Positions 2,472-29,695 of a stretch of DNA of 29,695 bases are shown here, piece by piece. The DNA lies in IMG/VR virus record IMGVR_UViG_3300030450_001113, positions 1-29,695 of that record; one strand, written 5' to 3'. The notes beneath the pieces were generated by a model, which saw only the letters and a program-made list of their open reading frames with translations, was not told where the DNA came from and ran no database searches. The translations under genes were made by a program, and so were the position numbers. Source of the stretch: a virus. Positions within the stretch are counted from its first letter, which is position 1. Each line of letters starts with the position of its first letter.

Positions 2472-2732
2472 ATGAGTAAAAACAATTTAAAACTATTTGA
2501 TGATTATGATAATGTCAAAAAATGGCAAGAACATTGGGAAGATATGCCTGAATTTATACAAGAAGATTTAACAAGTAAAAGAAAAATTATTGTTCATTTT
2601 AGAAATGAAGAAGATGTTCAAAAATTTGCAAAATTAATTAATCAAAGAATTACACCTAAATTACCTTCATTATGGTTTCCTGAAATGAAAGCAAGAATAA
2701 GAACTGATAAAAAATATATTGATGAATCCTAA
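2472..2732 (+). CDS. Conserved small phage protein next to glycosyltransferase
   Basis: 86 residues. The core VHFRNEEDVQKFAKLINQ-ITPK--SLWFPE (about 41-70) is a pattern I associate with phage genomes that carry DNA-modification and ParB-like genes, where it occurs alone or fused. Its biochemical role is unknown to me. It overlaps the TAGT-like gene downstream by 11 bases, suggesting coupled expression and perhaps joint function on DNA. Confidence 0.7.
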   Translation: MSKNNLKLFDDYDNVKKWQEHWEDMPEFIQEDLTSKRKIIVHFRNEEDVQKFAKLINQRITPKLPSLWFPEMKARIRTDKKYIDES

Positions 2733-3549
2733 ATACCCTGTTTACATTATATCAAAAGGTAGAGCTGAAACTAGACAAACAAGTATAGGTTTAGAGAAAA
2801 TGAAAGTACCTTATCACATTGTAATTGAACCACAAGAATATAAAGAGTACAATAAATACATTCATAAAGATAAAATTAAAGTATTGCCTTTTAGTAATTT
2901 AGGTCAAGGATCAATACCAGCTAGAAATTGGTGTTGGCAAGATTCAATTGAAAGAGGTTTTGAAAGGCATTGGTTGTTAGATGATAATATTCCATATTTT
3001 AACAGATTAAATAGGAATTATCAAATTAGAGTAACTTCAGGAACTATTTTTAAAATTATGGAAGATTTTGTAGATAGATATGAAAACATAGCTCTAGCTG
3101 GTCCGAGTTATGATTTTTTTACAATAGCAAAAACTAAAATGCCACCCTTTGTAACTAACACTAGAATATATTCTGTTTTACTTATAAAAAATAATATACC
3201 TTACAAATGGAGAGGTAAATTTAATGAAGATACTGATTTAAGTATTAGAGCTTTAAAAGATGGTTGGTGTACTGTACAATTTAATGCTTTTACACAAGAA
3301 AAAGCTACTACAATGACTATGAAAGGTGGCAACACTAATGAACTTTATGAGAATACTAATAATAGAAAAGAGTTTGCAGAATCTTTACAAAAACAACATC
3401 CTGATATAGTTAAGGTTGTTTGGAGATATAATAGATGGCATCACCAAGTAGATTATAGACCATTTAAAAAAAATAAACTTATTTTTAAAAAAGACTATAT
3501 TAAAAAAACTGGTGTTAATAATTATGGAATGAAAATAGTAAAGATATGA
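2722..3549 (+). CDS. TET-associated glycosyltransferase (TAGT)-like protein
   Basis: 275 residues from ATG 2722; a TTG lies directly upstream, but the ATG fits the family start MNPKYPVYI-SKGR. Signature stretches in order: SKGRAETRQTSIGLEKM (11-27), VLPFSNLGQGSIPARNW (54-70), the metal/nucleotide-sugar motif LLDDNI (85-90, equivalent to DXD of GT-A enzymes), VDRYENIALAG (117-127), WRGKFNEDTDLSIR (163-176), TMTMKGGNT (197-205) and HHQVDYRPF (240-248). TAGTs transfer a sugar to a hydroxymethylated base in phage DNA. Length is typical and the domain complete. No TET/JBP dioxygenase, DNA methyltransferase or nucleotide hydroxymethylase is visible, so the acceptor base is unclear. Confidence 0.85.
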   Translation: MNPKYPVYIISKGRAETRQTSIGLEKMKVPYHIVIEPQEYKEYNKYIHKDKIKVLPFSNLGQGSIPARNWCWQDSIERGFERHWLLDDNIPYFNRLNRNYQIRVTSGTIFKIMEDFVDRYENIALAGPSYDFFTIAKTKMPPFVTNTRIYSVLLIKNNIPYKWRGKFNEDTDLSIRALKDGWCTVQFNAFTQEKATTMTMKGGNTNELYENTNNRKEFAESLQKQHPDIVKVVWRYNRWHHQVDYRPFKKNKLIFKKDYIKKTGVNNYGMKIVKI

Positions 3550-6038: not shown

Positions 6039-6366
6039 AATAGCTGAGATTATAGAAGATTATAACAATACTACTATTAGTGATGGAGTAAAGCTAAATG
6101 AACAGCTAAAGAACTTAACAAGCTACCTGTATTACATTGAAGGTATTAAGTCAAAGTATCACCAAGACTATGAAGAAATAGTTTACAACAAAGTAAACAA
6201 TGAAAAGCTTAGTGTTGCAAGAGCAGTAAACATAGCTAATGTAGAAGTTCCTGAAGTCTATAAGCTAAGAAAATTAACATCTGCTGGTTATAGAGTTTGT
6301 GATGCAATAAGAAGCAATATTAGTTTTTTAAAATTAGATTATAATAATGTAACTAAAAACTACTAA
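6019..6366 (+). CDS. Hypothetical early protein, last of replication block
   Basis: 115 residues, helical, overlapping the resolvase gene by 20 bases. Segments LTSYLYYIEGIKSKYHQDYEEIVYNK and SVARAVNIANVEVPEVYKLRK resemble DNA- or protein-binding helices of unnamed phage proteins often found before terminase modules. No motif recognised. Its stop overlaps the TAnnTTTG promoter box that begins the next transcription unit. Confidence 0.65.
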   Translation: MNEVLNKIAEIIEDYNNTTISDGVKLNEQLKNLTSYLYYIEGIKSKYHQDYEEIVYNKVNNEKLSVARAVNIANVEVPEVYKLRKLTSAGYRVCDAIRSNISFLKLDYNNVTKNY

Positions 6367-6371
6367 CTTTG
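6364..6371 (+). promoter_or_regulatory. Bacteroidota-type promoter (TAnnTTTG)
   Basis: TAACTTTG is an exact match to the -7 box TAnnTTTG of Bacteroidota housekeeping promoters, 20 bases before the sigma-like gene. I do not see a good -33 TTG at the expected distance. It would separate the sigma/packaging unit from the early operon. Confidence 0.55.
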
Positions 6372-6391
6372 TATAAACAACAAAAACTATT

Positions 6392-6898
6392 TTGTCTAAT
6401 AATGAGGTTCTACAAATCTTAGCACAGTATCAACAGAAATGGGAAGCAATGGCAACTAAGCTTCTATATCACAATTCTGAATTAAAAGCTATTGATATTG
6501 TACAAGATATGTATGTTAAAGTATTTGATGAATTAACAAACAATGAACTTCAAATAGATAACTTAATAGTTAACAAGAAGCCACACTTTGGAATAGTTAA
6601 AACAATTATTAAAAGGCTTATACAAGTAAAGAGTAAAAACAAAAACAATAAAATAAGGCTTAACAACTTACACAAAGAAATAGCTGATGATCTACAAGAG
6701 CAAGAAAAAGATATTGATAAAAAGATAGATGAAGTATTGCAAGAGATGTATTGGTTTGATAGAAAGCTATTTAACTTATATAGAAAAGAATTTCATAGTA
6801 TAAGAAAGCTAAGTAAAGCAACAAAGATAAGTCACGCAACAGTACACAAAACAATAGCAAAATGCAAACAGGAACTAAAAAACAAAATAAAACTGTAA
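6392..6898 (+). CDS. Sigma-70-like RNA polymerase factor
   Basis: 168 residues from TTG at 6392; the next in-frame ATG would remove 19 residues of the first helix. Residues about 33-47 (AIDIVQDMYVKVFDE) look like the region-2 helix of small sigma factors, and about 137-164 (SIRKLSKATKISHATVHKTI..) are a region-4 helix-turn-helix. The middle is a charged linker. Length fits an ECF-type or phage sigma factor. It has its own TAnnTTTG box and precedes the packaging and structural modules, so it probably redirects host polymerase to late promoters; the repeated element at 9389, 17763 and 18576 is the natural candidate target. Confidence 0.75.
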   Translation: MSNNEVLQILAQYQQKWEAMATKLLYHNSELKAIDIVQDMYVKVFDELTNNELQIDNLIVNKKPHFGIVKTIIKRLIQVKSKNKNNKIRLNNLHKEIADDLQEQEKDIDKKIDEVLQEMYWFDRKLFNLYRKEFHSIRKLSKATKISHATVHKTIAKCKQELKNKIKL

Positions 6899-7275
6899 AG
6901 AAAAAAACAACTAAAAATAAAGTAGCTAAGTCTAAAGGTTTAGGAGATACTATTGCTAAGGTAACTAAAGCAACAGGAATAGACAAAGTAGTGAAGTTTG
7001 TAGCTGGAGAAGATTGTGGGTGTGAGCAACGTAAAGAAGCCTTAAATAAATTGTTTCCATACAATAAGCCTAAATGTTTGCAAGAGAAAGAATATAACTT
7101 CTTAAAAGAATTTTATAAAACCCACAAAAATAGATTAACTGAAGATGAACAAAAAAAACTAATAGAGATAAGCAATAGAGTACTACACACTAAAAGAAAG
7201 ATAAGTAACTGTTCTAGTTGTGTAAAAGAATTAATAGCAGATTGTAAAAGATTATTTGAAAACTATGATGCATAA
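6862..7275 (+). CDS. Conserved Cys-containing phage protein
   Basis: 137 residues from ATG 6862, overlapping the sigma gene by 37 bases. A Lys-rich N-terminus (1-25) leads to GLGDTIAKVTKATGIDKVVKFVAGEDCGC (about 26-54), followed by EQRKEALNKLF and a CSSC pair near residue 117. I associate the GEDCGC-ERKE-LN arrangement with Bacteroidota phages. The CxC and CxxC pairs could bind a metal. Function unknown. Confidence 0.75.
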   Translation: MQTGTKKQNKTVKKKTTKNKVAKSKGLGDTIAKVTKATGIDKVVKFVAGEDCGCEQRKEALNKLFPYNKPKCLQEKEYNFLKEFYKTHKNRLTEDEQKKLIEISNRVLHTKRKISNCSSCVKELIADCKRLFENYDA

Positions 7276-9378: not shown

Positions 9379-9386
9379 TAAATTTG
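9379..9386 (+). promoter_or_regulatory. TAnnTTTG box before the tail module
   Basis: TAAATTTG matches the Bacteroidota -7 box exactly and lies directly before the first copy of the 29-base bipartite element. No clear -33 TTG. It may give host-sigma-dependent expression in addition to the phage element. Confidence 0.45.
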
Positions 9387-9388
9387 TA

Positions 9389-9417
9389 TATAACACTTTA
9401 CTAAAAAAATTACATTA
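9389..9417 (+). promoter_or_regulatory. Bipartite element copy A (candidate phage late promoter)
   Basis: TATAACACTT (9389-9398), 12-base AT-rich spacer, TACATTA (9411-9417), ending five bases before the ATG at 9423. Same half-sites with the same spacer length occur at 17763 and 18576. If TACATTA acts as a -10/-7 box, transcription would start at or just after the ATG, giving a leaderless or nearly leaderless message. Confidence 0.6.
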
Positions 9418-9422
9418 TATAT

Positions 9423-10052
9423 ATGAAGATTAAATTAAATGTGCCTGAGAATTTAAGTGAGATAACACTAGCACAATATCAAAGGTGGGTTAAGATAATT
9501 GATAAAGAAGAAGAAGTAGGTACTTTCTACCAGCAAAAGATGATTGAGATATTCTGCAATGCAGAACTACAACACATTATGCAAATGAGAGTAAAAGACA
9601 TTGAAGAAATAACTACTCACCTAAATACTTTATTTAATGAAAAGCCTGAGTTTAAACCTTTGTTTAGATTAGAAGATGAAGAGTTTGGTTTTATACCTAA
9701 GCTTGATGAAATGACTTTTGGAGAGTATATAGACTTAGACAACTATTTAACAGACTGGCAACAAATGGATTCAGCAATGGCTGTATTATTTAGACCTGTA
9801 ACATTTAAAAGAAAAGGTAAGTATTTAATTGAGGATTATGTAAGTAGTGAAAAGTATGATTTAAGTCAAATGCCTTTAGATGTTGTTTTAGGATCATTGG
9901 TTTTTTTTTGCAATTTAAAACAAGAATTACTGAAACATATACTGAGCTATTTGAAAACTCAGGAAGTAGTGGACATTCCACAAAACTTGAAGGCTTTGCT
10001 AGAAAGTGGGGTTGGTATCAATCCATTTATGGACTTACAAAAGGAGAGCTAG
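9423..10052 (+). CDS. Tail assembly chaperone, zero-frame product
   Basis: 209 residues, first gene of the tail module, five bases after element A. Helical, acidic body (ITLAQYQRWVKIIDKEEE.., LDEMTFGEYIDLDNYL..) as in gpG-like tail chaperones; 'F-EYIDLD-Y' is typical of Bacteroidota phage versions. After codon 162 it shares 144 bases with a second frame (9908-10165) that continues as the gpT-like part. The zero-frame end (..NLKALLESGVGINPFMDLQKES) itself looks protein-like, so both products are probably made. They would chaperone the tape measure protein during tail assembly. Confidence 0.8.
   Translation: MKIKLNVPENLSEITLAQYQRWVKIIDKEEEVGTFYQQKMIEIFCNAELQHIMQMRVKDIEEITTHLNTLFNEKPEFKPLFRLEDEEFGFIPKLDEMTFGEYIDLDNYLTDWQQMDSAMAVLFRPVTFKRKGKYLIEDYVSSEKYDLSQMPLDVVLGSLVFFCNLKQELLKHILSYLKTQEVVDIPQNLKALLESGVGINPFMDLQKES
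9902..9908 (+). other. -1 ribosomal frameshift site (T-TTT-TTT)
   Basis: A run of nine T (9901-9909) follows GG. In the zero frame it reads GTT TTT TTT TGC. The heptamer T TTT TTT at 9902-9908 allows both tRNA-Phe to slip back one base and continue as TTG CAA TTT AAA. No convincing stem-loop lies immediately downstream; a small GTGGA/TCCAC hairpin (9969-9981) is too distant. Confidence 0.75.
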
Positions 10053-10165
10053 GAAAGATTGAAGAAGTAACAAAGTCAAAGCTACACACTTGCTTAACTA
10101 TGTTAGCATTTGAAAAAGATAAAATGGAAGTTGAACAGCAATTGATGAAGAATGCAAAGAGATGA
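9908..10165 (+). CDS. Tail assembly chaperone, -1 frame extension (gpGT-like)
   Basis: 85 codons entered by -1 slippage at 9902-9908, giving a fusion of about 247 residues with the first 162 codons of the 9423 gene. The segment FARKWGWYQSIYGLTKGELGK then EEVTKSKLHTCLTMLAFEK is the conserved C-terminal part of Bacteroidota phage tail chaperones; it has no good ATG start, only the TTG inside the slippery run. The fusion is expected at low ratio to the short form and binds the tape measure. A sequencing error in the T-run is the alternative, but the long coding overlap in both frames argues for programmed shift. Confidence 0.8.
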   Translation: MQFKTRITETYTELFENSGSSGHSTKLEGFARKWGWYQSIYGLTKGELGKIEEVTKSKLHTCLTMLAFEKDKMEVEQQLMKNAKR

Positions 10166-10421
10166 GATAATAGACCAGCTACTAACTAGGAAGCTATTTG
10201 GTGAGTCTGAAACATTAGTGCTTACTGATGGTTTAGAAGAAGCATTTATGGGAGTTACTGCTACAACACCAACAAAAGCAATATATGACTATTGGAAGTG
10301 TTTAGACATTATTATCAAATCAGATGAAACAATGAACTTTAATGAAGCATTAGATTATTTAGAAAAGCTAAGTAAAGAAGATGTTGGTGAACACTCACCT
10401 ATATATATAAAATTAATATGA
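10152..10421 (+). CDS. Conserved small phage protein
   Basis: 89 residues. The pattern DEIIDQLL then LTDGLEEAFMGVT, IYDYWKCLDIII, FNEALDYLEK and VGEHSPIYI matches a widespread unnamed phage protein that ends with 'YVGE-TPI'. Its function is not known to me. It overlaps the frameshift product by 14 bases and the next gene by ATGA. The family is not confined to tail genes, so its position here gives little functional hint. Confidence 0.75.
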   Translation: MQRDEIIDQLLTRKLFGESETLVLTDGLEEAFMGVTATTPTKAIYDYWKCLDIIIKSDETMNFNEALDYLEKLSKEDVGEHSPIYIKLI

Positions 10422-10873
10422 GAAGTTTTTATAGAGTAATAGACAAAATTAAACAGGCTGTTAGTTCAGAGCCTTTTAATAATCAAGTAACCTTTGGTGA
10501 TATTTCAGATGTTGATTTAAGAAAGCAATCAATGTTTCCATTATCACACATTACAGTTAATAGTGCAACAATAACTACAAATTTAGTACAGCACAATATG
10601 ACTGTATTTTTTATGGATTTAGTAGATGTAAATAATGCTGAAGATGAAAGCTACTTTTTAGGTAATGACAACACACAAGACATCTTAAACACACAACTAG
10701 CTTTAGCTACTAGAGTAATACAGTTACTAAGAAAAGGAGAGTTATATAGAGATGAGTTTGAAATAGAAGGTGATGCAACTTGTGAACCATTTACAGAAAG
10801 GTTTGAAAATAGATTAGCTGGTTGGGCAGTTACTTTTACTATTAACACTAAAACAGAAATGACTATTTGCTAA
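10418..10873 (+). CDS. Tail completion/terminator-like protein
   Basis: 151 residues. The patterns FNNQVTFGDISDVDLRKQSMF (split here after F; PLSHITVN follows), FFMDLVDVNN, TQDILNTQLALATRVIQLL and FENRLAGWAVTFTI.. are those of a conserved Bacteroidota-phage protein. Its mixed alpha/beta order and placement before an HK97-gp10-like gene suggest the tail terminator ring that caps the tail tube and docks to the neck. Role inferred from position and shape, not from a named catalytic motif. Confidence 0.7.
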   Translation: MRSFYRVIDKIKQAVSSEPFNNQVTFGDISDVDLRKQSMFPLSHITVNSATITTNLVQHNMTVFFMDLVDVNNAEDESYFLGNDNTQDILNTQLALATRVIQLLRKGELYRDEFEIEGDATCEPFTERFENRLAGWAVTFTINTKTEMTIC

Positions 10874-10874
10874 G

Positions 10875-11357
10875 ATGGGAGAATTTGAAAAGGCATTAGA
10901 GAAGTATGGTAAGTATGTTGTTCAACAGGCTAGAACTAATTTAACTAAAAGAGGTAAAAACTCTAGTAAAGAATTATATAATAGTTTAAGCTATAAGGTA
11001 CAGAAAAAAAGTGTGTTGTTTGATATGCTTGATTATGGATCTTTTCAAGATGAGGGAGTAAAAGGTAAAAAATCAACATATTCTGAAAGTTCATCTTCAC
11101 CATACAAGTATAAAAGCAAGATGCCACCTAGCTCAGTATTTGATAAGTGGAGCATAAGAAAAGGAATAGCACCAAGAGATAAGCAAGGTAGATTTATAAG
11201 CAGAAAGAGTTTAAACTACTTACTTGCTAGAAGCATATACAACAAAGGAATTAGAGCAACAATGTTTTTTACAAAACCTTTTGAAGCTGGTTTAGATAAA
11301 TTTAGTGATGATATAGTATTTGGTTTTATAGAAGATAATTTAAAATTAGAAGAATGA
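10875..11357 (+). CDS. HK97 gp10-like neck/tail completion protein
   Basis: 160 residues. Starts FEKALEKYGKYVVQQARTNL, followed by S-ELYNSLSYKV and a basic middle with KMPPSSVFDKWSIRKGIAPR; these features fit HK97-gp10/neck-1-type proteins in Bacteroidota phages. The C-terminus is a helical acidic tail. It probably bridges connector and tail. One base separates it from the upstream stop. Confidence 0.65.
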   Translation: MGEFEKALEKYGKYVVQQARTNLTKRGKNSSKELYNSLSYKVQKKSVLFDMLDYGSFQDEGVKGKKSTYSESSSSPYKYKSKMPPSSVFDKWSIRKGIAPRDKQGRFISRKSLNYLLARSIYNKGIRATMFFTKPFEAGLDKFSDDIVFGFIEDNLKLEE

Positions 11358-12427
11358 GTACATTAACATTAACAAGAAGTCCAAGATATATACGAACATC
11401 AAGTTTAGCAAATGCTACATACTTTAAACTAGAGCTTTATATATTTACAGGCTTAACAAGTGATAAACCAACAGATGCTACATATACACTTGAAAAAGAT
11501 GTTATCAATAGTCAAACACAAGTTACATTTGAGATTAACCAACTAATAAGAGATTACTATGAGCATATTGCACCAACAACAGGCAACAGCACAGGCTATG
11601 TATTATGGGCAATAGCAGATGTAACAGGATTCACAAGCAGTACTGTAGGAGCAACAGTAAGCACTACATTTTTAGCTTTTGATGGTTATAATTATTTCCA
11701 AGAAGCAGCTTCAAATGGTGGTTCAATAAATGCTACTTACACATTACCAACATTATTAACATCTAGTAAAATACAGGTTCTAGAAAGTGAAGCAGCACAG
11801 ATTCCAGTAAATGCTGAAATAGCTGAAACAGTAAACTTTAAATTAGCTGGTGCAACAGTAAGCACACATTCAATAACTGATAATGGCAACACTAACCAAA
11901 AGATTCAATACATAACAACTACTGCTGCAAATGTAGATGCTGTTGATGTTATATACAATAGTGGTGGTAGTACTCAATCATTCACTATTGAAGAAGTATC
12001 AGAGTGTAAACATACAGTTAGTAAAATTGTTTTTATTAATAAATATGGAGCTTTGCAGAACTTATACTTTTTTAAGAAGTCAGTAGAAAACTTGCAAATA
12101 AATAAAGATAGCTTTAACAGAAATATACTAGATGAAACAATTCCTTATATTGTTGGATTTCAATTTAAAGAACATCAAGATAAAAAGTTTAACATAATTG
12201 CTAATGAAGCTATTACTTTAAATTCAGGGTTTGTTAGTGAAAGTATGAATGATAGCTTTAAAGAATTACTATTAAGTCAATATGTTTGGATGGTTAGAGA
12301 TGGTGATACTTTACCTATGAATGTAGAAGAATCAAGCTTTACTTACAAAACAGGATTGAATGATAAGTTAATTAACTACACTATCAACTTAAAATATGCT
12401 TTTGATACTATTAACAATGTACATTAA
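11354..12427 (+). CDS. Tail structural protein, beta-rich
   Basis: 357 residues starting MSTLTLTRSPRYIRTSSLAN. Thr/Ser-rich beta strands throughout the first 230 residues, then SECKHTVSKIVFINKYGALQN (split: the run FINKYGALQNLYFFK is typical) and an EHQDKKFNIIANEAI region near residue 275. It sits between neck genes and the large tip protein, overlapping both by 4 or 1 bases. I regard it as a distal-tail or minor tail component; no named domain. Confidence 0.65.
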   Translation: MSTLTLTRSPRYIRTSSLANATYFKLELYIFTGLTSDKPTDATYTLEKDVINSQTQVTFEINQLIRDYYEHIAPTTGNSTGYVLWAIADVTGFTSSTVGATVSTTFLAFDGYNYFQEAASNGGSINATYTLPTLLTSSKIQVLESEAAQIPVNAEIAETVNFKLAGATVSTHSITDNGNTNQKIQYITTTAANVDAVDVIYNSGGSTQSFTIEEVSECKHTVSKIVFINKYGALQNLYFFKKSVENLQINKDSFNRNILDETIPYIVGFQFKEHQDKKFNIIANEAITLNSGFVSESMNDSFKELLLSQYVWMVRDGDTLPMNVEESSFTYKTGLNDKLINYTINLKYAFDTINNVH

Positions 12428-14607
12428 TGCAAGAATTAATACTATATATAAAACCACAGCAGAGAGATAAAACAGATCAGAACTATGTAAAGGTAGATTT
12501 GTTTACTGATGAGAATGTTAGCTTAACACAAGTAATTCAAGATGTTAGGGATATAGACAAAGTGTTTACTGATTACAGTAGAACATTTAATTTACCAGCT
12601 AGTGAAAAGAACAACAAACTATTCAAGCATTGGTACAACCCTGATGTAAAAGGTTTTGATGCTAACATACAAAGTGATGCAAAGATAGAGTTAAACTATC
12701 AACCATTTAGAGAGGGCAAAATAAGACTGCAAGAGGTCAAGATGAAAGACAATAGACCTCATACTTACAAGATTACTTTCTTTGGTAAAACAGTAAGTTT
12801 AAGTAACACACTTGGTGAAGATAAGCTTAATGATTTAGTTTGGCTTGATAACTTTGCTTTTACTAATTCAGCAGCTAATGTAAAAACTGGTTTAGATACA
12901 GGTTTTAATGTTACTGTTGATAGTGTTACATATAACAATGCAGTTATTCATCCATTAATATCAATTAATCAAAGATATATTTTTAATAGTACTGGTAATG
13001 ATACAGATGGTGGTAATATATCTACATCAGGCTCTAACAATACTCAAAGAGGTGTAATGCCTGAAGATTTAAAACCAGCAATAAAAGCTAGTTTAATTGT
13101 CAAGGCAATTGAAGAGCAGTATGGAATAACATTTAAAACAGGTGAATTTTTTGATAGTACAGAGTTTAGTAATTTATACTTATGGTTGCATAGAAATAAA
13201 GGTGCAATAGATTCAACTTCTTCAAAAGTTATAAATGAAAGTTTTAATTGTACTAATGTTGTACCAGCTTCAGGTTCAACTGCTTGTAATTTCTTTTCTA
13301 CAACAACAGAAGCTCAGTTTGTAGATGGTAAATATAAAATTGAAAAAACAAATAATTTAAGAGGTTTTGCTTCTCAAATTATAATAACTCCAGCTGGTGG
13401 TTTTACAACTCAAAACTACACTATACAAGTATTAAATGAATTAAATAATGAGTTGTTAGGTCAACTTTCAGGAACAGGAACATTAACTCTTGCTGTTGGA
13501 TTTGATTACATAGGTAATGAAATGGCAATTGGAGAGAAAAAAGAAATTGTTGTAAAGATAATTTCATCTTCAACATTTACTTTTGCATCACAAATAGACG
13601 TTCAAGTGTTTCAAGGCACAGCAATACCTTTAGTAGAATATAGAGCTAGATATAATCAAGTAGCAGCATCAACATCTACAGCTTCATCTTCATTATTACC
13701 AACAAATCAAATACCTGATTTAAAAATAGTTGATTTTTTAAAAGGTATTTTTAAGATGTTTAATTTAACTGCTTTTTTAGATAGTAGTGATAGAGTAGTA
13801 GTTAAAACATTAGATGACTTTTATAGTGATAGTACAACTACACACGATATAAGCAAGTTTATAGTAAAAGATGAACATACAGTTAGTGAAGCATTACCTT
13901 TTAGTGATATTAATTTTAAATATCCTGAACCTGAAACAAAACTAGCACAAGCATTTAAAAATATTAACAATAGAGAATATGGTAAACTAGAATATACAGC
14001 AGATGCTAGTAAAAGCAGAAAGTATGTAGTTGAAACTGTATTTTCTCATATGTTGTTTGAAAGGTTAACAGATTTAAATGATAGTTCAAATACTGACATT
14101 CACTATGGTTTATGTACTGATGAATCTGATAATACAGTATTACCAAAACCTTTAATTTTTTATGGAATTTACAATAACGTAAACACAACAGATATAAATT
14201 TTGTTGAAAGCACAAGACCTGAAGGTGGTGGTTTAGCTCCAGCTGGTACAAGGCACAGCATCACAAATTATTGGATGCCACACAATGCAAGTGAAATAGG
14301 AACAACATCAACAGCACCAGCATTTAATCTTAACTTTGGTAGTGAAATAAACAGCTACACATTAACAGATTATGGTGGTCAAAATAATAGTTTATTTTTA
14401 AAGTTTCACAAAGATTTTATTTTAAGAACATTTAATACTAAAACAAGAATCTTTAAATATAAAGCTGTGCTACCTTTGAAGTTTTTATTAACTTATAGTT
14501 TAGCTGATAAAGTATTTATTTCAGGTAGAGCATTTACTATTAATAAGATTACAACAGATTTACAAACAGGAAGAAGCACATTAGAATTATTAAATGAACC
14601 AAGCTAA
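12427..14607 (+). CDS. Large tail tip/baseplate protein
   Basis: 726 residues. The N-terminal FTDYSRTFNLPASEKNNKLF (about 47-66) and HWYNPDVKGFDANI then LNYQPFREGKIRLQEV are characteristic of the large tail protein of Bacteroidota siphophages. The middle is Thr/Ser/Asn-rich and beta-stranded; the end (KAVLPLKFLLTYSLADKVFI.., INKITTDLQTGRSTLELL) resembles hub proteins. Likely builds the tail tip that meets the cell surface. Starts on the last base of the upstream stop codon. Confidence 0.7.
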   Translation: MQELILYIKPQQRDKTDQNYVKVDLFTDENVSLTQVIQDVRDIDKVFTDYSRTFNLPASEKNNKLFKHWYNPDVKGFDANIQSDAKIELNYQPFREGKIRLQEVKMKDNRPHTYKITFFGKTVSLSNTLGEDKLNDLVWLDNFAFTNSAANVKTGLDTGFNVTVDSVTYNNAVIHPLISINQRYIFNSTGNDTDGGNISTSGSNNTQRGVMPEDLKPAIKASLIVKAIEEQYGITFKTGEFFDSTEFSNLYLWLHRNKGAIDSTSSKVINESFNCTNVVPASGSTACNFFSTTTEAQFVDGKYKIEKTNNLRGFASQIIITPAGGFTTQNYTIQVLNELNNELLGQLSGTGTLTLAVGFDYIGNEMAIGEKKEIVVKIISSSTFTFASQIDVQVFQGTAIPLVEYRARYNQVAASTSTASSSLLPTNQIPDLKIVDFLKGIFKMFNLTAFLDSSDRVVVKTLDDFYSDSTTTHDISKFIVKDEHTVSEALPFSDINFKYPEPETKLAQAFKNINNREYGKLEYTADASKSRKYVVETVFSHMLFERLTDLNDSSNTDIHYGLCTDESDNTVLPKPLIFYGIYNNVNTTDINFVESTRPEGGGLAPAGTRHSITNYWMPHNASEIGTTSTAPAFNLNFGSEINSYTLTDYGGQNNSLFLKFHKDFILRTFNTKTRIFKYKAVLPLKFLLTYSLADKVFISGRAFTINKITTDLQTGRSTLELLNEPS

Positions 14608-14760
14608 ATGAAAACAATAATTGATGCATTAGAATTTATTAAAGAAATCAAAGCTTATGATAAAAACATTATTATAGCTTTGGGTGTTAACAAGGTAGCA
14701 TTAACAATTAAAGAAGGATTTTATATAAAAAAATTAGAAGATGAAAGAGGTAAATTATAA
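14608..14760 (+). CDS. Small tail-module protein (50 aa)
   Basis: ATG two bases after the tip-protein stop. 50 residues (MKTIIDALEFIKEIKAYDKN.. ending KKLEDERGKL): a helix, a short hydrophobic strand and a basic/acidic tail. It overlaps the tape measure gene by 20 bases, so translation is probably coupled. No family recognised. Confidence 0.55.
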   Translation: MKTIIDALEFIKEIKAYDKNIIIALGVNKVALTIKEGFYIKKLEDERGKL

Positions 14761-16699
14761 AATAAATATAAATACTGAAGATGCAAATAAAGGTTTAAAA
14801 CAAACTGAAGCTTCTATTGATGCAATTCCTAAGTCTATTAAAGCTGCTGAACAAGGAACTGATAAACTAAACAAAGGTTTAACAAAAACTAATAAAGTAG
14901 CTGGTGTTGTTAAAGGTGGTATTAATAAAATTGGTTTAGCATTTAAAGCTGCTGGAATTGGTTTGATCATTTCTGCATTTTCTAAGTTAACAGAACTATT
15001 TTCTACCAATCAGAGGGTAATGGATGCTTTTAATGTAGTTGGTGAAACTACTGCCATTATCTTTAATCAACTATTTAATGCAATTTTTAATACAGCAGAA
15101 ACTTTAGGTCAAACAAATGGTTCTTTTAATGCTACTCTAAAAGTAATGAAGGCATTAATAACTTTTGGTTTAACTCCCTTAATAGGTTCTTTATTAACCT
15201 TTAAAATTGGGGTTCAATCAGCACAATTAGCTTGGGAAAAATCAGTATTTGGAGATGGTGATACTAAAAAAATAAAAGAATTAGAATTAGGTTTAGTAAA
15301 AACAGCAGCACAATTAACAAAACTAGGTGCTAATGTTTTACAAGCTGGTTCTGATATTGTAGAGTATGGTGTTGAAGCAGCTGGTGAAATAGGTGATTTT
15401 ACAATGGCTACTATTGATGCTGTTTCAAAAGTAAGTTTAAAATCTAGTTTTGAACAAGCAAAGCTAAATGTAGAACTTAAAAAACAAGCTGAAATAGCAA
15501 GGGTAACACAACAAGGCTTAGTAGAACAATATGATAGACAAGCAGAAGTATTAAGGCAAACAAGAGATGAAGAAAGAAATACTATTGATGAAAGAATAGA
15601 AGCTAATAACAAGTTAAAAGAAGTATTAGAAGAGCAGAAAGTAGAAATGCTTAAACAAGTAGATTTACAAATTAGACAAGCTCAAGCTCAATATAATGTT
15701 AATAAAAGTCAAGAGAATTTAATAGCATTATTAGAAGCTAAGAATGAAAAGAAAGCTGTTGAAGCACAAATAGAAGGGTTTTTAAGTGAACAAAAAACAA
15801 ATGATTTAGCACTAAGTAAAGAAAAGTTAGATCTTGAAAAAAGTTTAACAGATGCAGCAGCAGAAAGAAAAATAACTGAATTAAATGCTAATGCTGAGCT
15901 TATAAAAAATGATGAAGATAGAATTAATCAACAGCTTAAAAATTTAGAAGAAGAAAAAAGAATCCAAGAAGAAAGATTAACTGCTCAAAGGGATTCTTAT
16001 AAAGCAGATACTCAAGCTTATATAGATGCTCAGATAGAATTAGATAATTTTAAATTAGATGCAACAATAAGAGAAAAACAACTTAGACAAGAATTATCAG
16101 ATTTTATTATAGAAAAAGCTAAAGAAGAAAGAGAAGAAGAAATTAAAACAGTAGAAGCTAGGTTAAATTTAGCAACACAAGCAGCTAATTCAGTTCAATC
16201 ATTAGGTGATGCTGTATTTGCTCATAAAATGAAAAACTTAGAAAAAGGTAGTGCTGAAGAAGAAGAAATGGCAAGAAAACAATTTAAGTTTAATAAAGCA
16301 CTACAACTAGGTATGGCAATTATTGATGCTGGTAAAGCAATTACTGCTTCATTAGCTCAATCACCTATAGCTATCGGTCCAGTTCCTAATCCAGCTGGTA
16401 TTGCTTCATTAGCATTTGCTGCTGCTACAAGTGCTGCTAATATAGCAACAATTGCAGCTCAACAGTTTCAAGGTGGAGATACAACAGCACCTTCTTCAGT
16501 TACAGGAGCTGGTGGTGGTGCAACAGGTATAGGATCACAAGCACCAGCATTTAATGTAGTTGGTCAATCAGGATTTAACCAAGTAGCACAAGCACTAGGA
16601 CAACAAAACAGCACACCTGTAAAAGCATTTGTAGTTAGTGGTGATGTTACAACAGCACAAGCATTAGAAAACAATATAATAGATACAGCAACTTTTTAA
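14741..16699 (+). CDS. Tail tape measure protein
   Basis: 652 residues. The N-terminus (MKEVNYKININTEDANKGLK) and TEASIDAIPKSIKAAEQGTD are typical tape-measure starts. Hydrophobic segments occur near 65-82 (LAFKAAGIGLIISAFSKL) and in the C-terminal Ala-rich part (NPAGIASLAFAAATSAANIA). A long coiled coil fills about 240-470. It sets tail length; by the usual rule of about 0.15 nm per residue the tail would be near 100 nm. The C-terminal region probably enters the membrane on ejection. Follows tail tip genes, unlike the lambda order. Confidence 0.9.
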   Translation: MKEVNYKININTEDANKGLKQTEASIDAIPKSIKAAEQGTDKLNKGLTKTNKVAGVVKGGINKIGLAFKAAGIGLIISAFSKLTELFSTNQRVMDAFNVVGETTAIIFNQLFNAIFNTAETLGQTNGSFNATLKVMKALITFGLTPLIGSLLTFKIGVQSAQLAWEKSVFGDGDTKKIKELELGLVKTAAQLTKLGANVLQAGSDIVEYGVEAAGEIGDFTMATIDAVSKVSLKSSFEQAKLNVELKKQAEIARVTQQGLVEQYDRQAEVLRQTRDEERNTIDERIEANNKLKEVLEEQKVEMLKQVDLQIRQAQAQYNVNKSQENLIALLEAKNEKKAVEAQIEGFLSEQKTNDLALSKEKLDLEKSLTDAAAERKITELNANAELIKNDEDRINQQLKNLEEEKRIQEERLTAQRDSYKADTQAYIDAQIELDNFKLDATIREKQLRQELSDFIIEKAKEEREEEIKTVEARLNLATQAANSVQSLGDAVFAHKMKNLEKGSAEEEEMARKQFKFNKALQLGMAIIDAGKAITASLAQSPIAIGPVPNPAGIASLAFAAATSAANIATIAAQQFQGGDTTAPSSVTGAGGGATGIGSQAPAFNVVGQSGFNQVAQALGQQNSTPVKAFVVSGDVTTAQALENNIIDTATF

Positions 16700-16709
16700 A
16701 TAAAAGACA

Positions 16710-17600
16710 ATGGAAAATAAAATGGAAATAATAGAACTTCTACTAGATGAAGAAAATGATGTTACTGGAATAGAAGCCGTTAGTATAGTTGAAGCTCCAG
16801 CAATAGAGAGTGATTTTATAACTCTTAAAAGTCAAGAAATACAACTTGCTAAAGTAGATGATGAAAAGAAAATATTAATGGGAGCAGCTTTAATACCTAA
16901 CAAACCTATTTACAGAAAGCAAGGTGAAAAAGAGTATTATGTTTATTTCAGTAATGAAACAGTTAGAAAAGCTAGTGAATTATTTTTTAAGAATGGCAAT
17001 CAAAACAATGCAACACTAGAACACAAACTAGCAATTAATGATTTAACAGTAGTTGAAAGTTGGATAGTAGAAAACAAAGAAAAAGATAAAACTGCTTTAT
17101 ATGGTTTAGATGTGCCTGAAGGTACTTGGATGATTTCAATGAAAGTTAACAATGATGAAATTTGGAATGATTTTGTGAAAACAGGCAAAGTTAAGGGTTT
17201 TAGTATTGAAGGATATTTTGCAGACAAAGCTAAACTAGATGCTAGTGCTGTTAAAGTAGATGTTGATGAAGAAAAAGCAAAACAGAAAATAGAAGAAATT
17301 AAAAACCTATTTACTCAAAAAAAAAAAGTTAAACTAGAAAGCTATTCTGATTATCCTAAAGCAGCTTTAAGGTGGAGTAAAAGCAAACTAAAAGAACTAG
17401 GAGAAATAGAACTTGCTTCAATGGTTATTGATGATGAGTTTGCAATAATTGATGATAGACTTGCATACTCAACACAAGAAAAAGCTGAGGAAACAGCTAA
17501 AAACATAGGTTGCAAAGGATTCCACACACATATTTATCAAGATTTAGATGGTAAAGAAAAAACTTGGTATATGCCTTGTGAAAAACATATAAACGATTAA
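16710..17600 (+). CDS. XkdF-like prohead protease with C-terminal Cys/His domain
   Basis: 296 residues. XkdF-type core at about 50-185: ILMGAALIPNKPIYR, YYVYFSNETVRKASELFF, NATLEHKLAINDLTVVESWI, TWMISMKVNNDEIW and GKVKGFSIEGYF. The His of LEH and the Ser of GFSIEG are the probable catalytic pair, as in prohead serine proteases. A separate C-terminal part (about 240-296; IIDDRLAYSTQEKAEETAKN, then GCKGFHTHIY and TWYMPCEKH) has paired Cys and His that could bind metal. It opens the head module and should trim scaffold and other head proteins during maturation. A second ATG at 16722 could also serve as start. Confidence 0.8.
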   Translation: MENKMEIIELLLDEENDVTGIEAVSIVEAPAIESDFITLKSQEIQLAKVDDEKKILMGAALIPNKPIYRKQGEKEYYVYFSNETVRKASELFFKNGNQNNATLEHKLAINDLTVVESWIVENKEKDKTALYGLDVPEGTWMISMKVNNDEIWNDFVKTGKVKGFSIEGYFADKAKLDASAVKVDVDEEKAKQKIEEIKNLFTQKKKVKLESYSDYPKAALRWSKSKLKELGEIELASMVIDDEFAIIDDRLAYSTQEKAEETAKNIGCKGFHTHIYQDLDGKEKTWYMPCEKHIND

Positions 17601-17602
17601 TT

Positions 17603-17761
17603 ATGAAAAGTAAAAGAAGAGATACAAAGACACACATACCAAGTAGAACATCACCTAAAGGCGGTCGTAGAGGTTGCTTGTGTAAAGATGGCAAAAGCTA
17701 CAGTCAAAAGTGTTGTGATGGTAGCATTGGCGCACAAGGAATAGGAAAAACTAGAGCTTAG
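17603..17761 (+). CDS. Conserved Cys-rich basic micro-protein (52 aa)
   Basis: Ends with GGRRGCLCKDGKSYSQKCCD and GSIGAQGIG. The pattern G-CLC-DG--YS--CC-G---AQGIG recurs in Bacteroidota phage head modules. Four cysteines (CxC and CC) could form a small metal site. Basic N-terminus. Possibly a virion decoration or DNA-binding peptide; function unproven. Its stop overlaps the start of element B region. Confidence 0.75.
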   Translation: MKSKRRDTKTHIPSRTSPKGGRRGCLCKDGKSYSQKCCDGSIGAQGIGKTRA

Positions 17762-17762
17762 C

Positions 17763-17791
17763 TATAACACTTAGTAAAAAAATTTACATTA
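17763..17791 (+). promoter_or_regulatory. Bipartite element copy B (candidate phage late promoter)
   Basis: TATAACACTT (17763-17772), 12-base spacer AGTAAAAAAATT, TACATTA (17785-17791); the ATG follows five bases later, as in copy A. It separates the Cys-rich peptide from the paired coiled-coil genes. Confidence 0.6.
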
Positions 17792-17796
17792 ATAAT

Positions 17797-18198
17797 ATGA
17801 TACTACAAAATATATTTAATAAGCTGTATAAAGTAGATATGGCTAAAGAAGAGTTTGAAAAAACAGAATTAGCTACTCATAAAATTGAATTATCAAATAA
17901 AGATGCAATAAAATTTAAAAAAGAAGCTGAACAAATTTATTATAATTCAAAAAAAGAAGCTGAATCAGAAATATTAAATGCTTCTTCTAAAATGAAAGAT
18001 AGTTATAAAAAATTAAGAAAATTAGATTCAGAAATGGATAAAATTTTTGAAAAATTTGATAAAATGGCTAAAGATTTAGGTGTTGATGTAAGAAGTACAA
18101 AAGTTGGTAAAACATATTTAGAAGCAGCAGAAGAAATACAAAATTATCAAATAAAATCACAAACTGCTGAAAGCAAATTGAGAAAGTTTAAAATTTAA
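17797..18198 (+). CDS. Small coiled-coil head-module protein, paralog 1
   Basis: 133 residues from ATG 17797. The N-terminus contains LQNIFNKLYK and then EKTELATHKIELS, shared with the next gene (LQTVYNKIK, EKTELATHKVDLG). The start is fixed by this homology. The rest is a Lys/Glu helix with heptads and MAKDLGVD near residue 91. It lies between protease and scaffold, directly behind element B. The shared N-terminal motif also appears in the scaffold and in the 23095 protein, so it may be a signal for prohead incorporation. No catalytic residues. Confidence 0.75.
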   Translation: MILQNIFNKLYKVDMAKEEFEKTELATHKIELSNKDAIKFKKEAEQIYYNSKKEAESEILNASSKMKDSYKKLRKLDSEMDKIFEKFDKMAKDLGVDVRSTKVGKTYLEAAEEIQNYQIKSQTAESKLRKFKI

Positions 18199-18202
18199 AC
18201 AA

Positions 18203-18556
18203 ATGAGAACACTACAAACAGTATACAACAAAATAAAAGAAGAGAAAACAGAATTGGCTACTCATAAAGTTGATTTAGGTGCAATAGATGACTTAGATGA
18301 TAAGTATAAAAAAATAGCTTCAAAAGCACCAAAAATTAAGCAACAAATTTTAAAAAATTCTAACGAATTATCGGCTGTAAGTAATGATTTAGATAATTTG
18401 CAATCTGATTTTAAAAAACTTGAAGGAATGGCAAAAGAATTAGGAGCAGATAATATAGAAAAAAGAGCTAGAACAATGTTTAATACTGTTGGAAATTTAA
18501 GTTCAGCTTGGGGAAAAGCAGCAATACAAATAGAAAGTTCAGCTAAAAACATTTAA
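18203..18556 (+). CDS. Small coiled-coil head-module protein, paralog 2
   Basis: 117 residues. N-terminus MRTLQTVYNKIKEEKTELAT (1-20) then HKVDLG; the DNA for EKTELATHK is nearly identical to that of paralog 1, indicating duplication or recombination. The remaining helical part carries MAKELGAD, matching MAKDLGVD of paralog 1 and TAKELGIQ of the 23095 protein. Four bases separate it from paralog 1. Probably an internal head or scaffold-associated protein by position; unproven. Confidence 0.75.
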   Translation: MRTLQTVYNKIKEEKTELATHKVDLGAIDDLDDKYKKIASKAPKIKQQILKNSNELSAVSNDLDNLQSDFKKLEGMAKELGADNIEKRARTMFNTVGNLSSAWGKAAIQIESSAKNI

Positions 18557-18565
18557 ATAAATAAA

Positions 18566-18592
18566 AACACTTAGCTATAACACTTTAGCTAT
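18566..18592 (+). repeat. Tandem 13/14-base repeat overlapping element C
   Basis: AACACTTAGCTAT (18566-18578) is followed at once by AACACTTTAGCTAT (18579-18592). The second unit supplies the first half-site of element C. TAGCT (18574-18578 region) and AGCTA (18587-18591) can also pair in front of a run of T, giving a weak terminator-like hairpin. Confidence 0.6.
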
Positions 18593-18604
18593 TTTTTTAC
18601 ATTA
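18576..18604 (+). promoter_or_regulatory. Bipartite element copy C (candidate phage late promoter)
   Basis: TATAACACTT (18576-18585), 12-base spacer TAGCTATTTTTT, TACATTA (18598-18604), 25 bases before the scaffold ATG. The spacer differs from copies A and B (T-run instead of A-run) while both half-sites and spacer length are kept, arguing for selection on the half-sites. Confidence 0.6.
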
Positions 18605-18629
18605 GTAGTATAAGATTATATTTAATAAT

Positions 18630-19274
18630 ATGAAAGCAACAGAAATTTTAAACAAAATAAAAGGCATAGTTGGGGTAGAATTAGCAGAAGAATCTGTTAA
18701 ACTAGCTGAACTAAAGCTTGAAAATGGTACTGTATTAGTAGCAGAAGAATTTAAAGAAGGTCAAGCAATCTTTATTAAATCAGAAGATGAACAAATAGCA
18801 CTTCCAGTAGGTGAATATGCTCTTGAAGATGGTAGAGTATTAATAGCTAAAGATGAAGGTTTAATTGCTGAAATTAGAGAAGCAGTTGAAGAAGCTAAAG
18901 ATGAAGAAACTGAAGAAGTAGAAGCTGCTGAAGAAAAAGAACAAATGCAGTATGTTACTAAAGAAGAATTTGCAAATGCAGTAGGTGAGATCAAAGGAAT
19001 GATTGAAGAATTAGGCTACAAGAAAAAAGATGAAATGTCTGAAGAAACTACTGAAGAAATTAAAGAAGAAAGCACAGAACTATCTACTGAAGAAGTAAAA
19101 GAAGATGAGGTAGTTGAAGAAGTTACTGAATTATCTGCTACTAAAGAAGAAGCAGTTGAGCCAATTAAACACAACCCTGAATCTGAAGAAAAGAAAACAG
19201 GTAAATTTTTATTTGGACAAAAAAGAACTGAAACAACTAGAGATAGAGTGTTTAGTAAAATAGCTAATAATTAA
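18630..19274 (+). CDS. Head scaffold protein
   Basis: 214 residues, very acidic, helical. N-terminal MKATEILNKIKGIVGVELAE.. followed by KLENGTVLVAEEFKEG, ALPVGEYALEDGRVL and LIAEIREAVEEA; then a long Glu/Lys/Thr-rich part and a conserved C-terminal TRDRVFSKIAN. This is the arrangement of scaffold proteins directly upstream of major capsid genes in Bacteroidota phages. It should nucleate prohead assembly and be removed by the XkdF-like protease. Its N-terminus shares NK[IL]---ELA with three small proteins nearby. Element C probably drives it and the capsid gene. Confidence 0.8.
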   Translation: MKATEILNKIKGIVGVELAEESVKLAELKLENGTVLVAEEFKEGQAIFIKSEDEQIALPVGEYALEDGRVLIAKDEGLIAEIREAVEEAKDEETEEVEAAEEKEQMQYVTKEEFANAVGEIKGMIEELGYKKKDEMSEETTEEIKEESTELSTEEVKEDEVVEEVTELSATKEEAVEPIKHNPESEEKKTGKFLFGQKRTETTRDRVFSKIANN

Positions 19275-19290: not shown

Positions 19291-20223
19291 ATGGCAACAA
19301 CAACTTCAATCACTTCAACGTATGCTGGAGAATTTGCGGGTAAATATATATCCGCTGCATTGTTAAGTGGTTCAACAATTGAAAACGGTTTAATAACTGT
19401 AAAACCTAATGTAAAGTACAAAGAGGTTTTGAAAAAGGCAGCAACAGATGCTAATGTAATTAAAGATGCTACTTGTGATTTCACTCCTACAGGTACATTA
19501 ACATTAACTGAAAGAATCCTTCAACCTGAAGAGTTTCAAGTAAATATGGAATTATGTAAGAAAGATTTCAGAAGTGATTGGGAAGCAGTACAAATGGGAT
19601 ATTCTGCTTATGATAACTTACCTCCTAAATTTTCTGATTTCATCATTGGGCACGCTGCTGGATTGGTAGCTGAAAAGACTGAACAAAATATTTGGGCTGG
19701 TCAAACAGGTAATGCTGGAGAGTTTGATGGTTTTTACTACTTAGCTACTGCTGGTGGTTCAGGATGTGTATCTGTATCAGGTTCACCACTTACTGCTGCT
19801 AATATCATCGATGAGATGGGTAAAGTAGTCGATGCAATTCCTTCAGGAGTTTATGGTAAAGAAGATTTATACATTTATGTTTCTAGAAAAGCTGCTAAAC
19901 TTTATGTTAGAGCTTTAGGTGGATTTGGTGCTAATGGCTTGGGTGCTGCTGGTGTTAATGCACAAGGAACTCAATGGTGGAACAATGGAGCATTGTCTTA
20001 TGATGGTGTTAAAGTTGTTATTGCTTCAGGATTGCCTGATGATTCAATGATGGCTGCTCAAAAATCTAACCTTTACTTTGGTACAGGATTACTTTCTGAC
20101 CTTAACGAAGTGAAATTGTTAGATATGGGTGATTTAGATGGTTCTCAAAACTGCCGCTTAGTAATGAGATTTACTGCTGGTGTACAAATTGGAATTACTT
20201 CTGATGTAGTTATCTATGCATAA
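19291..20223 (+). CDS. Major capsid protein, HK97-fold
   Basis: 310 residues. Position after scaffold, the N-terminal AGEFAGKYISAALLSGSTIE, LQPEEFQVNMELCKKDFRSD (two segments typical of the Bacteroidota phage capsid) and the C-terminal NCRLVMRFTAGVQIGITSDV identify the capsid subunit. Codon use differs from most neighbours, with more C-ending and Gly/Ala GGT/GCT codons, as expected for the most abundant protein. Gene followed by a strong GC-rich hairpin. No start problem: ATG at 19291, 16 bases after the scaffold stop. Confidence 0.85.
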   Translation: MATTTSITSTYAGEFAGKYISAALLSGSTIENGLITVKPNVKYKEVLKKAATDANVIKDATCDFTPTGTLTLTERILQPEEFQVNMELCKKDFRSDWEAVQMGYSAYDNLPPKFSDFIIGHAAGLVAEKTEQNIWAGQTGNAGEFDGFYYLATAGGSGCVSVSGSPLTAANIIDEMGKVVDAIPSGVYGKEDLYIYVSRKAAKLYVRALGGFGANGLGAAGVNAQGTQWWNNGALSYDGVKVVIASGLPDDSMMAAQKSNLYFGTGLLSDLNEVKLLDMGDLDGSQNCRLVMRFTAGVQIGITSDVVIYA

Positions 20224-23094: not shown

Positions 23095-23517
23095 ATGGAA
23101 ACAAGACAAATAATATACAACAAGTTAGCTGATAAAGTAGAGTTAAAAAGTGAAAGAATTGAGTTAGGTGTAGTACAAGATTTTAATAAAGTTGCAAATA
23201 GAATTACAAGTGGTAGAAAAAACTTAAATAAAGCAGCTCAAGAATTTGTAAATGATTTATCAAATTTTGGAAAGTTGCAAAATAAATTAGAAAATTCTTT
23301 TAGAAAAGCAGAGGTTTTTGGAGAGCAAATACAAGAAGATATAGATTTAATAAATAAAATTGCTGATGATATAGCCAAAACAGCTAAAGAATTAGGTATT
23401 CAACCTAAAGATACTGGTATTGATTTAAGTGTTTTAAAAGCTATTGATGATGTTGAAGATACTATAAATACTATTAAGAAAAATTCTTCTGATGCTAAAA
23501 AAATATTAAATGTATAA
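23095..23517 (+). CDS. Small coiled-coil protein, paralog 3
   Basis: 140 residues. N-terminus METRQIIYNKLADKVELKSE followed by RIELG aligns with LQTVYNKIKEEKTELATHKV-DLG of the 18203 protein, and TAKELGIQ with its MAKELGAD. The rest is helical (heptads in the middle). Located between portal and connector, four bases after the portal stop. Its relation to paralogs 1 and 2 and to the scaffold N-terminus suggests a head-internal or head-assembly role. Confidence 0.7.
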   Translation: METRQIIYNKLADKVELKSERIELGVVQDFNKVANRITSGRKNLNKAAQEFVNDLSNFGKLQNKLENSFRKAEVFGEQIQEDIDLINKIADDIAKTAKELGIQPKDTGIDLSVLKAIDDVEDTINTIKKNSSDAKKILNV

Positions 23518-29263: not shown

Positions 29264-29461
29264 ATGGAATCAATATATATTCACGAATCACATACTATTT
29301 ACTCTGAAAATGGAGAGGTGCATTTGCTTACAGAAAATAATCACATTGTATTTAATGCAGATACTTTATTTAATGACATACCAGCATTAGCAGATATGGC
29401 TTTAAAAGAGAGAAAAAAACAAGAAGAAATAATTATTAATCAAATCAAAAATATAAAGTAA
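29264..29461 (+). CDS. Small early protein (65 aa), full copy
   Basis: MESIYIHESHTIYSENGEVH (strand pairs) followed by a helical Lys/Glu-rich end. Its last 23 codons are repeated at 2-73. It ends TAA overlapping the ATG of the next gene, where the left-end copy ends TGA. Function unknown. Confidence 0.7.
   Translation: MESIYIHESHTIYSENGEVHLLTENNHIVFNADTLFNDIPALADMALKERKKQEEIIINQIKNIK
29389..29457. repeat. Right terminal direct repeat, arm 1
   Basis: Identical to bases 1-69. Located in the 3' part of the 65-residue gene. Confidence 0.95.
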
Positions 29462-29625
29462 TGGTAAGAACATTTTATGTGCAAAAAGGTAAAGAAGATA
29501 TTATGCACAAATTCAAAGAAACTAATGAGAAACTTGGTTTAAATTATTCAGCTACAATAGTTGAATTAATGGAGAAATTTAATAAGTCTAATGCTAAAAA
29601 AATAAAAGATGGAAACAGAGATTAA
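29461..29625 (+). CDS. Small ribbon-helix-helix-like protein, allele 2
   Basis: 54 residues (MVRTFYVQKGKEDIMHKFKE..). RTFYV would be the strand, KEDIMHKFKETNEKL the first helix and YSATIVELMEKF the second, a tidier ribbon-helix-helix pattern than allele 1 at 70-285. Shares YS-TIV--M--F and the C-terminal GNRD with it; allele 1 has a longer N-terminus and an insertion around KKEGNVSWWEFS. Same neighbours on both sides. Probable DNA-binding regulator; function not shown. Confidence 0.7.
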   Translation: MVRTFYVQKGKEDIMHKFKETNEKLGLNYSATIVELMEKFNKSNAKKIKDGNRD

Positions 29626-29695
29626 ATACAGCAAAAACATTTTTACACTATCAGACCACCATACAGAGGTTGATATTGAACTAAGCAAGAACCAC
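29609..29695 (+). CDS. 5' part of small early gene (repeat of 269-469)
   Basis: 29 codons from ATG 29609, identical to the start of the 66-residue gene at 269. Cut by the window end. An in-frame TAA lies just upstream (29603-29605), which fixes the start of both copies. Confidence 0.85.
   Translation, partial: METEIKYSKNIFTLSDHHTEVDIELSKNH
29609..29695. repeat. Right terminal direct repeat, arm 2
   Basis: Identical to 269-355. With arm 1 it flanks the divergent 151-base segment. Confidence 0.95.

Follow-up and report, generated by a model that had tools for sequence, protein, structure and literature searches.

The 29,695-nucleotide stretch of viral DNA analysed here (the window; IMG/VR virus record IMGVR_UViG_3300030450_001113) carries a bipartite element, TATAACACTT-N12-TACATTA, and a gene for a putative sigma factor of the extracytoplasmic function (ECF) type. 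The element is present in exactly three copies, all on the + strand, with both half-sites exact and a spacer of 12 bases. Copy A follows terL and precedes the first tail-module gene, copy B lies 5′ of a pair of coiled-coil genes, and copy C 5′ of the scaffold-like and capsid genes; the sites of this fixed-spacing element in the window are thus confined to the starts of structural operons (3/3).

A three-copy bipartite element before the structural operons

The copies and the genes that follow them are arranged as below.

9389–9417, + strand: putative late promoter, copy A, with upstream box 9389–9398 (TATAACACTT), N12 and downstream box 9411–9417 (TACATTA)
9423–10052, + strand: first gene 3′ of copy A, start of the tail-module operon
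17763–17791, + strand: putative late promoter, copy B, with boxes 17763–17772 and 17785–17791
17797–18198, + strand: coiled-coil gene 3′ of copy B
18576–18604, + strand: putative late promoter, copy C, with boxes 18576–18585 and 18598–18604
18630–19274, + strand: scaffold-like gene 3′ of copy C, followed by the capsid gene (19291–20223)

A preliminary description of this DNA had reported these three copies with their exact half-sites and 12-base spacers, which a mismatch search of both strands bore out, and the ATG five bases past TACATTA in copies A and B was found as described. No further site with up to 3 mismatches was present on either strand of the window, for which 0.92 matches are expected at 3 mismatches from shuffled sequence. 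When any 10-mer and any 7-mer joined by one fixed gap were allowed to recur at three places, 6 of 300 dinucleotide shuffles (~2%) contained such a triple, so the window by itself gives only moderate support, being unusual and not overwhelming. A position-specific scoring matrix (PSSM) built from 29 distinct family sites, the window's own three among them, scored the three copies at 34–35 and the next best position of the window at 6.5, and it detected no weaker extra site in the window, such as one before terS. A chance repeat was considered and rejected, because the element recurs in relatives.

The comparison with relatives covered about 40 related phage contigs, which are fragmentary and whose sequences are related throughout. 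An exact-pattern scan of IMG/VR returned 43 stretches, most of which are relatives with the element before the same gene, either that after terL or the scaffold gene. A looser pattern gave 37 distinct sequences; 29 were family sites; the other 8 lack the conserved bases downstream and were discounted as chance matches. The sequence of the spacer differs among relatives and its length is always 12 bases. Two relatives (G033 and G034) possess a corresponding third copy 5′ of their coiled-coil gene, and more distant ones carry [C/A/T]ATAACACT[T/A]-N12-TACATTA at the same gene positions.

Given that the start codon is close to the element in copies A and B, an action at the level of RNA or DNA structure (translation initiation, packaging or recombination) could be envisaged in place of a promoter. 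We consider this barely credible, since copy C and the scaffold sites of two related groups (sigB and sigC, described below) lie ~15–25 bases from the ATG, and the spacer is fixed in length and free in sequence; searches of the window for Rfam families and for tRNAs gave no match.

The coiled-coil gene 3′ of copy B (17797–18198) is one of three, with 18203–18556 and 23095–23517, that encode small coiled-coil proteins whose N-terminal stretches resemble one another and that are scattered around the head genes; the sequence TELATHK is common to two of the three proteins.

The phage sigma factor and its co-variation with the element

The putative sigma gene lies 5′ of the terminase genes.

6392–6898, + strand: ECF-like sigma factor, 168 amino acids, TTG start, region 2-like at ~1–95 and region 4-like at ~112–168

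An AlphaFold model of this protein (24 homologues; mean predicted local distance difference test score, pLDDT, 83.9; predicted template modelling score, pTM, 0.49) comprises an N-terminal helical domain, a linker and a C-terminal helix-turn-helix. Its best fold matches in the PDB are ECF sigmas, with E. coli sigmaE (1or7) first and SigW and RpoE also among them (Foldseek probability 1.00), and region 4 alone superposes at 2.2 Å on region 4 of sigmaE bound to −35 DNA (2h27). Judged from the model, the protein is folded like an ECF (group 4) sigma and consists of region 2, region 4 and a linker only. The PHROG sigma factor family phrog_1740 matches homologues with E-values from 1e-5 to 5e-3, and weak matches to Pfam Sigma70_r2 were seen in 7 of 24 family members; only gp35 of phage P12024L passed a cut-off; a PDB sequence search with the sigma profile gave no convincing match. 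Among the non-structural genes common to all motif-bearing lineages examined, this is the only recognisable DNA-binding regulator.

When the relatives were arranged by their sigma, the element was found to change with it. Window-like sigmas (sigA) pair with TATAACACT[T/A]-N12-TACATTA and sigB sigmas (~40–48% identical) with CATAACACT[T/A]-N12-TACATTA, and the element stands 5′ of the first gene after terL in all relatives with a sigma of either group. The sigC sigmas pair with TATAACGATT-N12-CGTTTAT 5′ of the gene after terL, and the scaffold site reads TATAACAGT[T/A]-N12-CGTTTAT in all 8 sigC contigs read there, with the same spacing and gene positions as the TACATTA element. Whole-contig searches found ATAACnnT-N13-TACATTA in 20/20 sigA/B contigs and the CGTTTA form in 0/20. 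These 20 include short contigs that do not reach the sigma gene and were placed in the group through their capsid relationship and motif. The CGTTT form was found in 22/22 sigC contigs, in some of which one counted match sits inside the sigma gene, and the TACATTA form in 0/22. Among 13 contigs in which the sigma is more distant or undetected, the CGTTTA form was found in none (0/13), and the one TACATTA match (G071) lacks the family context. In several contigs of the clade with the most distant sigmas (sigD), ACAAAAACACGAA occurs 5′ of the matching gene, and in G071 also 5′ of a scaffold-like gene (sites of these two kinds are at L338, 218 and L005, 4041); it occurs at other places in these contigs as well, and is a candidate late element of this clade.

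Co-occurrence of motif and sigma gene in relatives, raised in the preliminary description, was found. Sigma-like genes without this element, which that description had named as grounds for refutation, also exist; in the sister (sigC) clade, however, a different element stands at the same places, which refines the reading and does not refute it.

At the level of sequence, the element, its conservation, its location and its co-variation with the sigma are established by these data. Over 20 representatives, the distance between downstream boxes tracks that between regions 2 with region 4 removed (partial Mantel r 0.69, p 0.0002). The mutually exclusive elements of sigA/B and sigC contigs, together with a hybrid, G005, point to promoter sequence specificity set by the sigma. 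In G005, the upstream box is the window-type TATAACACTT but the downstream box is CGTTTA (TATAACACTT-N12-CGTTTA), at the site after terL as well as at the scaffold site, and a second contig (L053) repeats the latter. In region 2, the G005 sigma has 20% identity to that of the window and 48% to a sigC sigma; in region 4 the values are 62% and 84%. G005 has a capsid 90% identical to that of the window and a changed downstream box, whereas G034 has a capsid only 49% identical and the exact window element; it is therefore the sigma, and not the structural genes, that the element tracks.

These comparisons also bear on the relation to the host −7 box. The element had been described as different from the host TAnnTTTG; this is right in that TACATTA lacks TTTG, and does not extend to the TAnnTT part, which TACATTA retains and the CGTTTA of sigC relatives lacks, so that neither form contains the full Bacteroidetes primary-sigma box. 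Given this retained part and the host-like −33/−7 distances, the copies might be unusual promoters of the host primary sigma, with TACATTA as a weak TAnnTTTG and the upstream box as an activator site. We regard this as very improbable, because in relatives with another sigma the box becomes CGTTTA, with no fit to TAnnTT, at the same positions, and because a separate and better TAnnTTTG box is present just 5′ of copy A.

Alternatively, the copies might be operators of another phage DNA-binding protein, with the sigma-like protein an activator of the ArpU/RinA kind or a bystander. RinA and ArpU of Firmicute phages are encoded at a similar position, just 5′ of the terminase genes, and an uncharacterised basic protein (6862–7275) is also common to all motif bearers. 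This, too, seems very unlikely to us: two fixed boxes at promoter spacing are accompanied by an A at the predicted start site, the protein is folded like an ECF sigma that has both region 2 and region 4, and the downstream box co-varies with region 2. The 6862 protein does not stand out in G005 (51% there, 48–53% in the sigB group).

Because the element changes together with the sigma, we read the three copies as probable late promoters of the host core RNA polymerase when it carries the phage's own ECF-like sigma, with a probability of about 0.88. A dedicated late promoter for the sigma-70-like protein had been suggested from the window, and the change of the downstream box with region 2, including that in the hybrid, speaks for it.

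Several observations weigh against this reading. The window sigma falls below the Pfam sigma cut-offs, and no fold match reached an E-value of 0.001 (best 0.0034), a shortfall that a flexible joint between the two domains probably explains. The relatives do not count as independent cases, and shared descent is not corrected for in the Mantel tests. By identity, the upstream box does not track region 4 significantly (Mantel r 0.12, p 0.11) and instead tracks region 2 distance (r 0.55); the putative link of upstream box to region 4 is drawn from the hybrid and a few residues, with LSKATK in region 4 accompanying TATAACAC and LSAATN accompanying TATAACGA. Finally, the terminase genes, between the sigma gene and copy A, have no element of their own.

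Predicted start sites, host-type boxes and an embedded sigC site

In Flavobacterium johnsoniae, transcription begins 4–5 bases past the −7 box TAnnTTTG, which occupies −12 to −5 (PMC6847099). By aligning the first T of TACATTA with −12 of this geometry, the element is best read as a promoter with boxes at −34 to −25 and −12 to −6, whose predicted start is the A 12 bases past the first T of TACATTA. The predicted +1 is an A in 29/29 distinct family sites, preceded by T in 28/29 and followed by T in 25/29. In copies A and B it falls at 9423 and 17797, in each case the A of the ATG, and the corresponding messages should therefore be leaderless; in copy C it falls at 18610, which leaves a leader of 20 bases before the scaffold-like gene (start at 18630). 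In distinct contexts among relatives, the ATG of the gene after terL is 4 to 9 bases past the downstream box. The ATG thus coincides with the predicted start or is only a few bases away from it, and from this we infer that leaderless or near-leaderless messages of this gene are a family trait. The earlier suggestion of such messages agrees with both the F. johnsoniae geometry (PMC6847099) and the invariant A at the predicted +1. In F. johnsoniae, 87% of messages have a leader above 10 bases (PMC6847099), and leaderless structural messages, if real, would be notable in a phylum where host messages mostly have leaders.

Two host-type boxes accompany the sigma gene and copy A.

6364–6371, + strand: host-type −7 box (TAACTTTG) 5′ of the sigma gene, predicted +1 at 6376
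9379–9386, + strand: host-type −7 box (TAAATTTG), which ends 2 bases before copy A and would give a 32-base leader

A TAnnTTTG box 28–31 bases 5′ of the start is found in 13/13 window-like sigma genes, with varying nn bases, and this conservation suggests that host polymerase reads the sigma gene first. At the copy A offset, TAnnTTTG is found in 25/34 distinct contexts and with one mismatch in 7 more, two mis-anchored rows being left out. With this box directly before the late promoter in most relatives, the site before the gene after terL may be a tandem, overlapping host/late promoter.

Recognition by the sigma, the start sites, the timing and leaderless translation are what we infer from this pattern. 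The sigma gene would first be read from the host-type TAACTTTG promoter. Host core polymerase carrying its product would then recognise the three elements, with region 4 contacting TATAACACTT at −34 to −25 and region 2 contacting TACATTA at −12 to −6, and would switch on the tail module, coiled-coil and scaffold/capsid operons. Transcription from copies A and B would start at the A of the ATG and yield leaderless messages, and copy C would yield a message with the 20-base leader.

In the sigC clade, TATAACGATT-N12-CGTTTATATATAA is present inside the coding sequence of 69 distinct sigma genes (for example at 184–209 of contig L313), and a G005-type sigma gene (L264, 3868) holds a variant of it. 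The codons of the site for Y-N-D and N-K-A-F-I show zero synonymous change, with GCG in 69/69, and nowhere else in the sigC sigma genes is alanine encoded by GCG; variation is seen in the two spacer codons (S and L). Of all stretches of the gene, this one has the lowest synonymous variability, and two in-frame ATG codons (a conserved ATG-ATG) lie past its predicted start. It is possible, though doubtful, that this embedded cognate promoter gives a near-leaderless message for a shortened sigma, with region 4 and without most of region 2, acting as a feedback regulator, and that it also reads into the terminase genes. No internal site of this kind was found in the window by PSSM.

The terminase of the window has its nearest cultured relatives in Nonlabens phages P12024L/S (53%), which suggests a host among marine Flavobacteriia. 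Among cultured phages, no match was found to the first 25 kb of the window (phage DNA search) or to the sigma (tblastn), and a scan of genome contigs gave one remote match, in a Bacteroidetes metagenome-assembled genome. As to the window itself, its ends (1–355 and 29389–29695) share 69 identical bases, followed by divergence and then a 96% match over 101 bases, and enclose two different small genes; they possibly reflect a circular genome whose assembly drew on a mixed population. A TET-associated glycosyltransferase domain (PF20691) at 2719–3549 suggests modified DNA bases, although a scan of window proteins recognised no dioxygenase.

Comparison with known phage sigma factors

A phage sigma with late promoters of its own is of a known kind, represented by T4, SPO1, phiEco32 and 7-11. 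T4 gp55 and SPO1 gp28 and gp33/34 redirect host core polymerase to late genes, and the late promoters of T4 consist of one box and depend on the sliding clamp. Few phage sigma factors have known promoters. We found no Bacteroidetes phage sigma with known promoters described in the literature searched; the two marine flavophage genome papers searched make no mention of promoters, and "sigma" in their relevant passages is a reagent maker. Nonlabens phage P12024L, the nearest cultured relative by terminase, likewise has a sigma-like gene (gp35, PF04542) 5′ of the terminase, but its sigma is only ~21% identical and no such element is present 5′ of the matching gene.

The late sigma of phage 7-11 (SaPh711_gp47; promoters GTAAtg-(16)-aCTA) is likewise a phage sigma with region 4, first read from host-type promoters as is predicted for the window sigma, and its late promoters are also bipartite, with ~16 bases between the boxes (here TATAAC-16-TACATTA), and lie before late genes (PMC8948821). 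It differs from the present system in sequence family and host phylum, and in that two of the three starts predicted here are leaderless or nearly so. The gp36 sigma of phiEco32 (promoters tAATGTAtA) also serves non-early genes, but its promoter has a single element and the protein lacks region 4 (PMC8948821).

What is new here is the Bacteroidetes case, with predicted near-leaderless starts, a hybrid, and a sister clade with a putative promoter inside its own sigma gene. One sigma family and its promoters can be traced through clades of different specificity, including a hybrid of the sort that the authors of the 7-11 study predicted (PMC8948821), so that recognition of the downstream box by region 2 and of the upstream box by region 4 becomes directly testable. 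The pairs offer orthogonal sigma/promoter combinations for Bacteroidetes, and, with the element as a guide, late operons can be identified in marine flavophages that have not been cultured.

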